Positions 20,375 through 27,086 of a DNA stretch of 60,818 nucleotides are shown piece after piece. A program made the translations under genes and the position numbers. Numbering within the stretch: position 1 is the first letter of the stretch; every line of letters starts with the position of its first letter. The notes below the pieces were generated by a model that worked only from the letters and a program-made list of their open reading frames with translations, was not told the DNA's origin and did not search any database. The stretch is from Verrucomicrobiota bacterium (GTDB lineage Bacteria > Verrucomicrobiota > Verrucomicrobiia > Opitutales > UBA953): the NCBI GenBank assembly GCA_030831965.1, contig JAURJZ010000080.1:1-60818 (forward strand). The letters run 5' to 3'.

Positions 20375-21013
20375 TCAGAACTCGGATTCCTTGGTGCAGA
20401 TCCAGCACTTGATGCCGAGCTTGCCGTAGAGGGTGCGGGCCTCGGCGAATCCGTAGTCGATGTTCTCGCGGAGGGTGTGGAGGGGGACGCGGCCGACGCG
20501 GGCGGACTCGACGCGGGCGATCTCGGCGCCGCCGAGGCGGCCGCCGAGGCGGAGGCGGATGCCGTCGGCGCCCATCGACATCGTGGTCTGGACGGCCTTC
20601 TTCATGGCGCGCCGGAAGGAGATGCGGCGCTCAAGCTGGAGGGCGATGTTCTCGGCCACGAGCTGGGCGACGAGGTCGGGACGGCGGACCTCGTTGACCT
20701 CGAGGGCGATGTCGCCCTCCTTGCGGCCGGCGACCTGGGCGATCTCGACGCGGAGGTTCTTCAGGTCGTCGCCCTTGCGGCCGATGACCATGCCGGGGCG
20801 GGCGGTCCAGATGCGGACGCGGACCTTGGAGCCGGCGCGCTCGATGAAGATGCGGGGCACGGCGGCCTGGCGCAGGCGGTCCTTGAGGAACTCGCGGATG
20901 CGGTAGTCCTCGCGGAGGAGGCCCGGGAAGGTGCGCTTGTCGGCGAACCAGCGGGATTCCCAGTTGCGGCGGACCGCGAGGCGGAAGCCGGTCGGATTGA
21001 CTTTCTGTCCCAT
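20375..21013 (-). CDS. rpsC: 30S ribosomal protein S3
   Basis: 30S head protein at the mRNA entry channel. The 212-residue product has MGQKVNPTGFRLAVRRNWES, a KH domain with GMVIGRKGDDLKNLR, and the C-terminal RLGGRLGGAEIARVESARVGRVPLHTLRENIDYGFAEARTLYGKLGIKCWI end in order. Normal length. Confidence 0.98.
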   Translation of the reverse strand: MGQKVNPTGFRLAVRRNWESRWFADKRTFPGLLREDYRIREFLKDRLRQAAVPRIFIERAGSKVRVRIWTARPGMVIGRKGDDLKNLRVEIAQVAGRKEGDIALEVNEVRRPDLVAQLVAENIALQLERRISFRRAMKKAVQTTMSMGADGIRLRLGGRLGGAEIARVESARVGRVPLHTLRENIDYGFAEARTLYGKLGIKCWICTKESEF

Positions 21014-21030
21014 GAGAGTGCGAGGGGTTG

Positions 21031-21363
21031 TTACTTGGCGGCGAGGACCACCTTGACGTGGCTCATCGAGCGGAGGATGGGGTGGGCGGAGCCGCGGGCG
21101 GCGGGGCGGAAGCGCTTGATGGCCGGCCCTTGGTTGACGGTGGCGGAGAGGACGACGAGGCCGGCCGAGCTCAGGTTGTGGTTGTTCTCGGCGTTGGCGA
21201 TGGCGCTGGCCAGGGTCTTGGAGATGATGCGCGCGGACTTGCGCGGGATGAAGCGCAGGAGCTGCAGGGCCTCCTCGGCGGGCATGCCCTGGATCTGGCG
21301 GGCGACATCCCGGACCTTGCCGGGGGACATCCGGGCGTAGCGGGTGGTGGCTTGGACGTTCAT
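21031..21363 (-). CDS. rplV: 50S ribosomal protein L22
   Basis: 50S protein whose hairpin lines the exit tunnel. The 110-residue product has YARMSPGKVRDVARQIQG, AENNHNLSS and a shortened C-terminal hairpin (KRFRPAARGSAHPILRSMSHV). It is separated from rpsS, its usual immediate neighbour, by an extra 110-residue gene. Confidence 0.96.
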   Translation of the reverse strand: MNVQATTRYARMSPGKVRDVARQIQGMPAEEALQLLRFIPRKSARIISKTLASAIANAENNHNLSSAGLVVLSATVNQGPAIKRFRPAARGSAHPILRSMSHVKVVLAAK

Positions 21364-21373
21364 GAGGGTGGGT

Positions 21374-21706
21374 TCAGATGCGGGGATTGGCCCGGGCCTC
21401 GGCGCGGTCGCCGGGGCGGAGCGCCTCGCCGGGAGCGAGGTCGAGGACGAGGGCGACGGCGCGGGTCTCGCGGGACTCGGCGACGATGAGCCGGGCGACG
21501 GCCCGGCCGGCGCGGGTCACGCCGCAGACCATGCCGGGCCGGATGCCCTGGGCGTGGCCGCCGGCGAGCACGACGAGGTCGGCCGCCTCGCCGGGCAGGA
21601 CCGCGGCGACGTCGACCGCGCCGGTGGCGACCGCCGGGCCGGGCGCAGGCTCCGCCGCGCCGAGGGGGGCGAGGAGGAGGCAGAGGCTGGCGGCGAGGCG
21701 GTTCAT
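21374..21706 (-). CDS. Small exported protein inserted in the S10 operon
   Basis: A 110-residue protein of unknown function lying between rpsS and rplV. It fills an otherwise 350-base gap in a tightly packed cluster, with 7 and 10 bases to its neighbours, so it is probably cotranscribed with the ribosomal genes. The N-terminus (MNRLAASLCLLLAPLGAAEP) is a signal peptide. The mature part has a repeated Gly-x-Arg-Pro-Gly pattern (GIRPGMVCGVTRAGRAVARL and ALRPGDRAEARAN) resembling the small beta-barrel at the C-terminus of FlgT-like envelope proteins. Codon use is as GC-rich as the neighbours. No ribosomal family fits. The function is unknown. Confidence 0.72.
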   Translation of the reverse strand: MNRLAASLCLLLAPLGAAEPAPGPAVATGAVDVAAVLPGEAADLVVLAGGHAQGIRPGMVCGVTRAGRAVARLIVAESRETRAVALVLDLAPGEALRPGDRAEARANPRI

Positions 21707-21713
21707 CGGGGGA

Positions 21714-21989
21714 TCACTCGACCTTCTTGGAAGGCTGGGTGTGCTGCTTGAAGGTGCGGGTCGGGGCGAACTCGCCGAGCTTGTGCCCGACCATGTTCTC
21801 CGTGACGTAGACGGGGACGAAGGTCTTGCCGTTGTGGACCTCGAGGTTCACGCCGACGAACACCGGGGTGACGGTGGAGCGGCGGGACCAGGTCTTGATC
21901 GGCTTGCGGTTGCCGGCCTTCTGCGCGGCCTCGACCTTCTCCATCAGGGGAGGGTCGACGAAGAAGCCTTTCTTGCGGGAGCGTGCCAT
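21714..21989 (-). CDS. rpsS: 30S ribosomal protein S19
   Basis: 30S head protein that binds S13. The 91-residue product starts [19 protein letters not shown] and has [47 protein letters not shown] in order. ATG at 21989. Confidence 0.98.
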
Positions 21990-22012
21990 GGTGCGGGTGC
22001 GGTTCTGAGGGG

Positions 22013-22873
22013 TCAGGCGGACTTCACCTTCCGGCCGTTGCGGCGGACGATGATCTGCGAGTTGGTGGTCTTCGACTTGGTGCGGGTCGGGAAGTGCTTG
22101 GCGAGCTGGCCCCACGGCGAGCGCGGGTGCTGGCGACCGCCGCCGCCCTTGGACTTGCCCTGGCCGCCGCCGTTGGGGTGGTCGACGGGGTTCATGACCA
22201 TGCCGCGGACGCGGGGACGGCGCCCCTTCCAGCGGTTGCGGCCGGCCTTGCCGAGGGAGTTGTTGTGGTGGTCGACATTGCCGACCAGGCCGACGGTGGC
22301 GCGGCAGTCGGCGTTGAGGTAGCGCTGCTCGCCGGAAGGCATGCGCAGGATGGCGCGGTCGCCCTCGAGGCCGAGGAGCTGGGCGTAGGCGCCAGCGCCC
22401 CGGGCGAGCTGGGCGCCCTTGCCGGGCTGCATCTCGATGGCGTGGATGAAGGTGGCGGGGGCGATCAGGCGGAGGGGCAGCGACAGGCCGGGGACGAGGG
22501 TCTCCTGGGGGGTGTTGGTGCTGAGCACGGTGTCGCCGACCTTGAGGCCGTCGGGCGCGAGGATGTAGGCCTGCTCGCCGTCGGCGTAGGCGAGGAGGGC
22601 GAGGTGGGCGGTGCGGTTGGGATCGTACTCCAGGCGGACGACCTTGGCGGGCGCGTCGAGGCGGGCGCGGCGGAAGTCGACCTTGCGGAAGAGGCGCTTG
22701 TGGCCTCCGCCGCGTCGGCGGGAGGTGATGCGGCCGTAGCAGTTGCGGCCCTTGGCGCGGTGCACGCTCTCGACGAGCTCCTTGACGGGGCTGCCGTTGT
22801 GCAGGCCCTCGGTCCGGTTCCGGACGAGGAAGCGGGTGCCGGGGGTGATGGGGCGGTGGTTGATCAGGGCCAT
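22013..22873 (-). CDS. rplB: 50S ribosomal protein L2
   Basis: 50S protein near the peptidyl-transferase centre. The 286-residue product has [41 protein letters not shown], then [12 protein letters not shown] and the catalytic-centre loop [18 protein letters not shown] with the conserved His. About ten residues longer than average. Confidence 0.98.
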
Positions 22874-22886
22874 GGCGGTGCCGGTG

Positions 22887-23174
22887 TCAGGCGAAGGAGA
22901 TGGTGTCGCCCTTCTTCAGGGTGACGATGGCGCGGCGGGTGTCGGTCTCGCGGTAGACGCTGCCGCCGGAGAGGCGGGAGCGGCGGACCTTGCCCTTGCG
23001 GACGAGGATGTTGACCTTGGTCACGGTGACCTTGAAGGCGGCCTCGACGGCGGCCTTGACTTGGCGGCGGTCGGCGCCGGGGACGAGGTCGAAGACGTAG
23101 CGGCCCTCGGTGGCGAGGCCGGTGGCCTTCTCCGTGAGCACGGGGCGGGCGAGGACCTGGGAAGCGGGTTTCAT
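22887..23174 (-). CDS. rplW: 50S ribosomal protein L23
   Basis: Exit-site protein that docks trigger factor and SRP. The 95-residue product has RPVLTEKATGLATEGRYVFDL, RRQVKAAVEAAFKVTVTKVN and the C-terminal RRAIVTLKKGDTISF. Standard length and position between rplD and rplB. Confidence 0.96.
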   Translation of the reverse strand: MKPASQVLARPVLTEKATGLATEGRYVFDLVPGADRRQVKAAVEAAFKVTVTKVNILVRKGKVRRSRLSGGSVYRETDTRRAIVTLKKGDTISFA

Positions 23175-23181
23175 GGCGGGT

Positions 23182-23808
23182 TCAGTTGGCGGCGCGGGCG
23201 AGGACCAGCTCGAGGGCCTTCTCGGAGATGACCACGTTGCCGTGGCGCACCAGGTCGAGGGCGTTGAGGTTGGTCGAGTTGGCGAAGGCGGCGCGGGCGA
23301 CGTTGCGGCTGGCGCGGCGGACGGGCTCGGCCCAGGCGGCGTCGACGAGGAGGACGCGGCGCTCGCCGGGGCTCACCTTGTCGAGCACGCGGACAAAGGA
23401 CTTGGTCTTGGGCTGGGCGACCTCGAAGCGCTCGATGACGGAGAGGCCGCCGGCGGAGGCGAGGTCGAAGAGGGCGCGGCCGAGGGCCTTGCGGCGCTGG
23501 GTGGCGGGGATGGCCTTGGACCAGTCGCGGGGGCGGGGGCCGAAGACGACGCCGCCCTTGTAGAGCTGGGGGGCGCGCTTGTCGCCGTGGCGGGAGCCGC
23601 CGGAGCCCTTCTGGGGGAGCATCTTCTTGCCCGAACCGGCGACCTCGCCGTAGTTCTTGGCCTTGGCGTTGCCCTGGCGGCGGTTGGCTTGGTAGCCGAT
23701 GACGGCCTGCTTGAGCAGGGCGACGGCGCTGTCGCCCTCGAAGGCGGGGATGGCGAAGTCGCGCTCCCCGGCGGGGGAGCCATCGGCCTTGTGGAACTTG
23801 AGCTTCAT
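23182..23808 (-). CDS. rplD: 50S ribosomal protein L4
   Basis: 50S protein with a loop in the exit tunnel; in E. coli it represses the S10 operon. The 208-residue product has YQANRRQGNAKAKNYGEVAGSGKKMLPQKGSGGSRHGDKRAPQ in order (the tunnel loop), then FGPRPRDWSKAIPATQRRKAL and a Rossmann-like C-terminal part. Normal length. Confidence 0.97.
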   Translation of the reverse strand: MKLKFHKADGSPAGERDFAIPAFEGDSAVALLKQAVIGYQANRRQGNAKAKNYGEVAGSGKKMLPQKGSGGSRHGDKRAPQLYKGGVVFGPRPRDWSKAIPATQRRKALGRALFDLASAGGLSVIERFEVAQPKTKSFVRVLDKVSPGERRVLLVDAAWAEPVRRASRNVARAAFANSTNLNALDLVRHGNVVISEKALELVLARAAN

Positions 23809-23830
23809 GTGCGTGCGTGCGGGTTCGGGT

Positions 23831-24463
23831 TCACTTCGCCTTCTTGGCCTGGCGGACGAGGACGATCTCGCCGTTGGCGCCGGGGAGGCTGCCCTTGATG
23901 AGGATGAGGTTCTTCTCCGCGAGGACCTGGACGACGCGCAGGTTCTGGGAGGTGCGGCGGACGTTGCCCATGTGGCCGGGCATGCGCTTGCCCTTGAAGA
24001 CGTGGCCCGGGGTCTGGCGCATGCCGATGGAGCCGACGCGGCGGTGCATCATGTGGCCGTGGGTGTCGGGCTGGCCGGCCATGTTGTGGCGCTTCATCAC
24101 GCCCTGGAAGCCGCGGCCCTTGACGGTGCCGATGACGTCGACCATCTGGCCGGGGGCGAAGGTCTCGACGGTGAGGACGTCGCCGACCTTGTGGGCGGAC
24201 TCGCCGTCGAGGCGGATCTCGGAGAGGTGGGAGAGGGCGCCGGCGCCGGCCTTGCGGAGGTGGCCGAGCTCGGGCTGGGAGAGGCGGTGCTCCTTCTGGA
24301 CGCCGAAGCCGATCTGGACGGCGTGGTAGCCGTCCTTGGCCGCGGTCTTGACCTGGGTGACGGGACAGGGGCCGGCCTGCACCACGGTCACGGGGACGAG
24401 GTTGTTCTCGCCGTCGTAGACCTGGGTCATGCCGATTTTCTTGCCGATGAGGTGGAGTTTCAT
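23831..24463 (-). CDS. rplC: 50S ribosomal protein L3
   Basis: Early-assembly 50S protein that reaches the peptidyl-transferase centre. The 210-residue product has MKLHLIGKKIGMTQVYDGEN, VIGTVKGRGFQGVMKRHNMAG and the central extension SIGMRQTPGHVFKGKRMPGHMGN with the Gln usually methylated in E. coli. It is preceded by a 131-base non-coding gap after rpsJ. Confidence 0.97.
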   Translation of the reverse strand: MKLHLIGKKIGMTQVYDGENNLVPVTVVQAGPCPVTQVKTAAKDGYHAVQIGFGVQKEHRLSQPELGHLRKAGAGALSHLSEIRLDGESAHKVGDVLTVETFAPGQMVDVIGTVKGRGFQGVMKRHNMAGQPDTHGHMMHRRVGSIGMRQTPGHVFKGKRMPGHMGNVRRTSQNLRVVQVLAEKNLILIKGSLPGANGEIVLVRQAKKAK

Positions 24464-24594
24464 GATCGCTAAGAGGCAGGTGGCGGGGGCGCCGTTGGTC
24501 GGGGGCCTGCGTTAGGCTTCGGATGTCCTTGCGGAACCTTGGGCTTGGCGCGGGCAGGGGGACCTGCGTTGGGGGTTGCGGTTGAGGGTTGGGG
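24464..24594 (-). promoter_or_regulatory. 131-base leader between rpsJ and rplC
   Basis: The largest non-coding gap inside the ribosomal cluster. On the transcribed strand a short direct repeat, AACGCAGG followed by C-rich sequence, occurs twice about 75 bases apart. No ORF, terminator T run or clear promoter is seen. It could hold an RNA target for L4 or L3 feedback, or simply an internal promoter. Confidence 0.3.
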
Positions 24595-24903
24595 TTAGGC
24601 GGTGATGTTGACCTGGACGCCGGTCGGCAGGTTGAGCTTCTTCAGCTCGTCGACGGTCTGGGCGTTGGGCTCGTGGATCTCGATGAGCCGCTTGTGGGTG
24701 CGCAGCTCGAACTGGTCCATCGACTTCTTGTCGACGTGGGGCGAGCGGTTGACGGTCCAGACCTCGTGGGTGGTGGGCAGGGGCACGGGGCCGGCGACGG
24801 TGGCGCCGGTGCGCTTCGCGGTGTCGACGATCTCCGTGGCGGAGTGGTCGACGAGGCGGTAGTCGAAGCCTTGGAGCTTGATGCGGATCTTGGTGCGGGC
24901 CAT
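24595..24903 (-). CDS. rpsJ: 30S ribosomal protein S10
   Basis: 30S head protein, also a NusG/NusB antitermination partner. The 102-residue product has [60 protein letters not shown] in order. It follows fusA directly (14 bases), so tuf is not between them. Confidence 0.98.
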
Positions 24904-24917
24904 CGGGAAGGGAGGGG

Positions 24918-27086
24918 TTAGGTGCGGGCGGGGGCGCGGGTGGAGGTCTCGACCACGTGCTTGAGCACCTGGGCGGGCACCTGCTCGTAGTTGGCGGGCT
25001 CCATCGTGTAGGAGGCGCGGCCCTTGGAGAGGGAGCGGACGTCGGTGGCGTAGCCGAACATCTCGGCGAGCGGGACGCGGGCGTCGATGGTGCAGAGGTT
25101 GTTCTTGGTCTCCATGCCCTGGATCTGGCCGCGGCGGCGGTTGAGGTCGCCCATGATGTCGCCCTGGTACTCCTCGGGGGTGACGACCTCGACCTTCATG
25201 ATCGGCTCGAGCAGGATGGGCTTGGCCTCCTTCATCGCCTCCTTGAAGGCGAAGATGCCGGCCATCTTGAAGGCGAGCTCGTTGGAGTCGACCTCGTGGA
25301 AGGAGCCGAAGACAATGCGGGCGCGGAAGTTGATCACCGGGTAGCCGGCGATGGTGCCGTTGTTGGAGGCCTCGAGGATGCCCTCGGTGGCGGGCTTGAT
25401 GAACTCCTTGGGGATGACGCCGCCGACGATCTCGTTGATGACCTCCTCGCCCTTGGCGCCCTCCTCGCGGCCGGCGACGGGGTTGGGCTCGAGCTTGATC
25501 TCGACGTGGCCGTACTGGCCGCGCCCGCCGGACTGGCGGATGAACTTGCCCACGCCCTCGGCGGGGGTGTTGATGGTCTCGCGGTAGGAGATCTGGGGCT
25601 TGCCCGACTTGGCTTCGACCTTGAACTCGCGCTTCAGGCGGTCGACGATGATCTCGAGGTGGAGCTCGCCCATGCCGGAGATGAGTGTCTGGCCGGTCTC
25701 GGGGTTGGAGGTGACGCGGAAGGTGGGGTCCTCCTGGGCGAGGCGCTGGAGGCCGATGGAGAGCCGCTCGGAGTCGCCCTTCGAGTTGGGCTCGATGGAC
25801 ATCGAGATGACGGGGTCGGCGAAGGTGGTCTTCTCGAGGATGAGGTCGTCCTCGGCGGTGAGGGTGTCGCCGGTGGCGATGTCCTTCGGCCCGATGATGG
25901 CGCAGATGTCGCCCGAGTAGGCGACGTCGATCTCCTCGCGGTCCATGGCGCGCAGGAGGACGATGCGCGAGATGCGCTCGTTCTTGCGGGTGCGGGGATT
26001 GTAGAGGGCCTCGCCCTTCTTAAGCTGGCCGCGGTAGACGCGGTAGAAGACGAGCTGGCCGACGTGGGGGTCGGACCAGAGCTTGAAGCAGAGGCCGGTG
26101 ACCTTGGCCTTGTCGTCGGGGCCGATGGCGATCTCCTTGTCGCCGTCGTCGACGAAGGCGCGCTGCGGGCGCATGTCGACGGGCGAGGGCAGGAAGTCGA
26201 CGACGCAGTCGAGGAGCATCTGCACGCCCTTGTTCTTGAAGGCGGAGCCGGGGATGACGCCGATGAACTTGAGGGAGAGGGTGGCCTTGCGGATGCCGGT
26301 GCGCATCTCGTCGATGGTCACGTCCTGGCCGTCGAGGTACTTGGCCGCGAGGGTGTCGTCGAAGTCGGCGAGGGCCTCGATGAGCTTGGTGCGCCACTGC
26401 TTGGCCTCGGCCTTCTGCCCCTCGGGGATGTCGACCGTGTGGTACTTCATCCCCTTGGGATCGGTCTCGTCGTAGACGTAGGCGACGTTCTTGACCAGGT
26501 CGATCATGCCCTTGAACTCCTCGCCCTGGCCGATGGGGATGAAGAGGGGGTGGGCGTTGCCCTTGAGCTTCTCGCGGATGTCGTCGACCGCGCCGAAGAA
26601 GTCGGCGCCGGTGCGGTCCATCTTGTTGACGAAGGCGACGCGGGGGACGCCGTACTTGTTCATCTGGCGCCAGACCGTCTCGGACTGGGGCTGGACGCCG
26701 GCCACGGCGCAGAAGACGGCGACCGCGCCGTCGAGCACGCGGAGCGAGCGCTCCACCTCGGCGGTGAAGTCGACGTGGCCCGGGGTGTCGATGATGTTGA
26801 TCCGGTGGTCGATGTTGGCGAAGTGGCCCTCCTTCGTCTTCCAGCCGGCGGAGATGGCGGCGGCGGTGATGGTGATGCCGCGCTCGCGCTCCTGCTCCTT
26901 CCAGTCGGTGGTGGCGGTGCCGTCGTGGACCTCGCCCATCTTGTGGACGACGCCGGTGTAGAAGAGGATGCGCTCGGTCGTGGTGGTCTTGCCCGCGTCG
27001 ATGTGGGCGGCGATGCCAATGTTGCGGGTGTGCTCCAGCGGGAACTTGCGGCCGGCGGCGTTGAGCTGGGAAAGGGCGGTGGACAT
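24918..27086 (-). CDS. fusA: Elongation factor G
   Basis: GTPase that drives tRNA-mRNA translocation on the ribosome. The 722-residue product has G1 AHIDAGKT (27-34), the switch region [12 protein letters not shown]3 DTPGH (100-104) and G4 NKMD. All later domains are present, ending with [19 protein letters not shown]. It is the canonical translocation-type factor by its place between rpsG and rpsJ. ATG at 27086. Confidence 0.98.

Follow-up and report, generated by a model that had tools for sequence, protein, structure and literature searches.

Few bacterial gene pairs are as stable as rpsS and rplV, which encode the ribosomal proteins S19 and L22 and which nearly all bacteria keep adjacent. 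Small six-stranded barrels are common. Two described proteins with barrels of this kind come closest to the product of the gene reported here, namely the periplasmic rod-shape scaffold MreC (PF04085) and FlgT of the Vibrio flagellar H/T-ring, with its C-terminal barrel (PF16538). In E. coli, the periplasmic part of MreC consists of a coiled coil and two six-stranded barrels; it dimerises and forms filament-like arrays (PMC8804602). We analysed a stretch of 60,818 nucleotides, referred to below as the window, from a Verrucomicrobiota bacterium of the order Opitutales (GCA_030831965.1, contig JAURJZ010000080.1), in which a gene that we call X separates rpsS from rplV.

X occupies positions 21374..21706 of the minus strand and encodes a protein of 110 amino acids, with an ATG start codon and a TGA stop codon that is included in these coordinates. 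Upstream of it on the same strand lies rpsS (21714..21989, assigned by sequence and synteny), which is preceded by rplB (22013..22873; L2, clear by sequence and placed by synteny in the fetched loci). Downstream, also on the minus strand, lie rplV (21031..21363; Pfam Ribosomal_L22, E = 3.4e-36) and the next gene of the S10 operon, rpsC (20375..21013; S3, Pfam Ribosomal_S3_C). The rpsS stop codon is followed by X after 7 nt, and X by the rplV start codon after 10 nt, confirming both the 110-residue ORF with this spacing and the neighbours that the initial annotation had described. In most loci, X is separated from its neighbours by a few to tens of nucleotides, and in four congeneric species (L003–L006), its start codon overlaps the rpsS stop codon as ATGA (offset −1). 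In the rpsS–X–rplV part of the operon, neither a promoter-like site nor a terminator-like site on the minus strand was found. As in the ribosomal neighbours, the third codon positions of X are 96% GC, and its leader is C-rich without a clear Shine–Dalgarno sequence. Throughout the S10-operon genes at 20375–27086 of the window, C-rich stretches were observed before the start codons, with no Shine–Dalgarno sequence. In its strand, its tight spacing, and its conserved place between rpsS and rplV, X has the location of an S10-operon gene, and from the spacing, we infer that it is transcribed in the S10 operon and translated from the message that carries S19 and L22.

In terms of known families, the window protein had no match in sequence searches of Pfam, NCBIfam, and the PDB, and no Pfam or NCBIfam family reached its cut-off for X in either of the two forms described below. 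Profile searches with the X family returned only chance-level matches (S1, FeoA, KIF2A-like, and others). In the literature searched, we found no report of a gene separating rpsS from rplV in Verrucomicrobia. As a candidate, we considered the PVC signature protein described by Gupta et al. (PMC3444138), which is a different protein of 53–80 amino acids.

A first search of 57 related genomes identified a homologue of X in every one of the 36 further family genomes; several other families of the order also had homologues. A later and larger search covered 277 genomes of the order and obtained matches in 155; of the roughly 50 family genomes, a single one (G237, 85% complete) did not match. All 30 loci fetched first contained X at the rpsS–rplV junction; one locus (L027) that was below the tblastn cut-off in the first fetch was recovered later and is counted among the X loci. 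For the order in total, 44 fetched loci had X between rpsS and rplV. Every fetched family locus had an open frame at the same junction. The main test proposed in the initial annotation, a search for homologues at the same position in other Verrucomicrobiota, gave a positive outcome in many members of the phylum. Across the order, the identity of X drops to 20–30%, yet its reading frame is kept, as are the predicted export signal at the N-terminus and a Gly-rich core. With an intact ORF, homologues at the same junction throughout the fetched family loci, and purifying selection in most pairs, X is a real gene, and more than a chance ORF.

More than 100 loci, spread over two or more classes of the phylum, had X at the junction. 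With L22 as bait, we reached 16 named loci, from several orders, in which X lies between rpsS and rplV; they belong to Opitutales, Verrucomicrobiales (including a Roseibacillus MAG), and Chthoniobacterales. The same arrangement was present in 39 of 39 further loci that had both ends readable and had been chosen by X, and in nine loci outside the class but within the phylum. A few X loci in these counts represent the same species twice. In the flanks fetched for L072, L091, L098, L101, L219, L225, L232, and L233, no rpsS was found before rplV; the named ones among these loci are Victivallales or Lentisphaeria. At L091 and L098, X was missing as well, whereas at six loci of this kind, including one Victivallales MAG and one Lentisphaeria MAG, X still ended just before rplV. 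When 29 families of the class were sampled by S19, that is, regardless of X, nine contained X, 18 had an rpsS–rplV gap of 8–56 nt, and two had larger gaps of 161 and 562 nt with no recognisable X. These last two loci (L240 of family f39, 161 nt, and L261 of family f48, 562 nt) possibly contain decayed remnants of X. In 50 rpsS–rplV junctions of other phyla, X was found in none, and the gaps were 8–135 nt.

In the lineages without X, rpsS and rplV are mostly separated by a few dozen bases at most, and this repeated clean absence is most simply read as loss. Many lineages of the class are without X, so it is not indispensable. A TraDIS essentiality screen of Verrucomicrobium spinosum has been published (PMC12283558). 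The barrel profile described below matched 220 of the 237 genomes of the class, a count that overstates the occurrence of X because a membrane-anchored paralog matches as well. Over 96 loci, the identities of the X barrel and of L22 were correlated (Spearman 0.59; Mantel null maximum, 0.12), which indicates that the inheritance of X has been mostly vertical.

X occurs in two forms. The short form, found in the window's order, has a median length of 116 amino acids and consists of a predicted export signal and a barrel, whereas the long form of other orders and classes has a median length of 261 amino acids (about 240–290) and consists of a predicted export signal, a coiled coil, and the same barrel, as reflected in its hydrophobic N-terminus, long helices, and C-terminal six-stranded barrel. 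The short and long barrels aligned with hhalign values of 98.9–99.1% and, as judged by this profile alignment, are clearly homologous; by sequence, the form in the window's order is one in which the coiled coil is missing and the barrel has been kept. Only this short form was visible to the initial annotation, which was made from the window alone. The same phylum also contains a family of paralogs with a coiled coil and the same barrel as X (hhalign 97.7–99.4%), which differ from X in having an uncleaved N-terminal membrane helix and genes outside the S10 operon. In the families without X, the paralog is the remaining copy. In the window's own genome, a paralog adjoins pgi, the gene for glucose-6-phosphate isomerase (G000:C59:51299-51469, L201), and pgi-adjoining paralogs were also observed at L039, L047, L192, and L200 of the Opitutales. 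Tandem pairs of paralogs, located away from the ribosomal operon, were observed at L224, L226, and L228 in other classes of the phylum, and also at L229 and L230 (family f30) and L231 (family f51).

The predicted Sec signal peptide of X in the window covers about residues 1–18 (MNRLAASLCLLLAPLGAA; 21653..21706, minus strand), with an inferred cleavage site, and was called from hydropathy and an AXA-like rule only. A strongly hydrophobic N-terminal core was present in 68 of 69 short forms, and an AXA-like site followed it in all, so that the signal peptide first proposed for the window protein can be regarded as a predicted export signal conserved among the short forms. One relative (L020) has a lipobox-like N-terminus. 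Given this conserved prediction, the product of X would be exported by Sec. The location in a ribosomal operon, and a short stretch that aligned with ribosomal protein S1 (profile E = 0.3, not significant), would also fit a cytoplasmic, ribosome-associated protein whose hydrophobic N-terminus does not direct export. We regard this as very unlikely, because a hydrophobic N-terminus and an AXA-like site occur in nearly all homologues, the form in L020 is lipobox-like, and paralogs of the same architecture are membrane-anchored.

For the short form, AlphaFold2 predicted a confident six-stranded small beta-barrel over residues 30–106 (21389..21619, minus strand), with block pLDDT values of 95–98 over residues 31–100, and the same region matched the C-terminal barrel of the long form by profile. 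The model of the full long-form chain was moderate (mean pLDDT 76; pTM 0.38). When the models were compared with the PDB, the best match of the short form was FlgT (E = 8.7e-3), followed by the N-terminal barrels of F1-ATPase, and the long form matched FlgT (E = 4.9e-5) and Listeria MreC (E = 3.3e-3, rank 9). An MreC/FlgT-like six-stranded barrel fold for X is thus well supported by the predicted structures. The likeness to FlgT tentatively noted in the initial annotation persists at this level, FlgT being the top PDB match of the model, but it does not extend to membership of the FlgT family, and the MreC barrel matches too. Pfam matches of FlgT_C to the X family were sub-threshold (E = 0.02–0.04), and the FlgT_C cut-off was never reached: an A1 member gave E = 0.037, and a long form scored 15.6 bits where the cut-off is 27. 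FlgI, the P-ring protein, was found in one of the 17 X-bearing genomes tested, and because X is present in genomes without FlgI, it is not a flagellar FlgT. The top fold match could still be taken to indicate a flagellar ring protein of the FlgT type, an exceedingly unlikely identity that is contradicted by the 16 genomes without FlgI, by the sub-threshold FlgT_C matches, and by the lack of any counterpart of the other FlgT domains.

In a profile comparison with MreC of the same genomes, the long-form barrel aligned to the first barrel of MreC. The scores against this first barrel were 28–34 for the long forms and paralogs, and 20 column-shuffled controls scored ≤19. The short-form barrel alone gave a marginal result (8% probability, score 23.7, with controls up to 19.4). 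The NCBIfam MreC model aligned in the right register but was sub-threshold (E = 0.0016; 17.7 bits, with the cut-off at 343), and Pfam MreC (PF04085) had no match to X. A separate, true MreC was encoded in 13 of the 15 X genomes tested, including the window's own, and MreB in 17 of 17. The identification of X as MreC itself was rejected, because MreC is encoded separately, the family cut-offs are far off, and X has one barrel. In two genomes of family f30 (G303 and G412), MreB and the S10-operon barrel protein were present, and there was no MreC match (PF04085); the tandem paralogs of this family might be stand-ins for MreC in these genomes.

The dN/dS of X was 0.10–0.33 in most within-genus pairs. 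In the closest pair of the window (L001/L002), it was near 1 (0.94; for the barrel, pN/pS gave about 0.71), and 96% third-position GC limits synonymous change in this pair. The X proteins of this pair differ at about 30% of their residues, whereas rplV, rpsC, and rpsS show 2–3% nonsynonymous change, and weaker constraint on X in the window's own lineage is possible. Such fast protein evolution, together with the overlap of the X start with the rpsS stop in some species and the position of X directly before rplV even without rpsS upstream, would suit a main effect in cis, in which the polysome is tethered to the membrane, or rplV translation is tuned, by the synthesis of a signal peptide midway along the message, and the protein matters little. 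This explanation is improbable, although less so than the other alternatives discussed here: the conserved part of X is a folded barrel with invariant Gly, joined by a coiled coil in the long forms, neither of which a tether needs; dN/dS is 0.1–0.3 in most other pairs; and the paralogs, whose architecture is the same, have their genes outside this operon. The low constraint in the nearest pair and the several lineages cleanly without X might also point to a functionless hitchhiker, kept because disruption of the operon is costly. We assign this only a slim chance: two or more classes have kept X, with dN/dS low in most pairs, and because the clean absences show that X can be removed, its retention elsewhere implies selection.

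The explanation that we prefer, albeit tentatively, is that X represents an undescribed family of exported MreC/FlgT-like barrel proteins that is co-expressed with the S10 operon, has a scaffold role, and has a dosage that follows ribosome production. The location, the conservation, the two forms, and the barrel fold on which it builds were obtained computationally. Outside the cytoplasm, a barrel in the style of MreC and FlgT would serve as a module for protein binding. The coiled coil of the long form would oligomerise the protein and so produce an MreC-like scaffold, by analogy with MreC, and in the short form of the window's order, the barrel alone may be a scaffold or an adaptor. Given its place between rpsS and rplV, the amount of X made should track ribosome production, if its expression is not otherwise adjusted. 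The link between growth rate and an envelope function suggested in the initial annotation is likewise conjectural. A bolder version, which we consider doubtful, is that much of the phylum builds an envelope scaffold from the ribosomal operon, in the form of an exported MreC-like protein with coiled coil and barrel and with a dose set by ribosome synthesis, that envelope growth is stoichiometrically coupled to translation capacity in this way, and that the window's order does so with the barrel only. With its position at a stable junction, its two forms, its clean absences, and its lack of a family name, X is an unexplained feature of the Verrucomicrobiota, and the present analysis joins a set of hypothetical proteins into one family. 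If the dose of X does follow the operon, it would tie the cell envelope to ribosome production in a concrete and testable way.

Compared with the ribosomal proteins of the S10 operon, X shares their operon, strand, tight spacing, and mostly vertical inheritance, but differs in being predicted to be exported and in evolving fast, with a mean barrel identity of 29% against 61% for L22. Compared with FlgT, the likeness consists of the best PDB fold match and is confined to about 80 residues of barrel; the other FlgT domains are missing from X, which also has no flagellar context. Compared with MreC, the long forms have the same order of membrane or export signal, coiled coil, and six-stranded barrel. 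MreC has two barrels, whereas X has one in both models; the signal of most X proteins is likely a cleaved one rather than an anchor; and X is located in the S10 operon rather than beside mreB.
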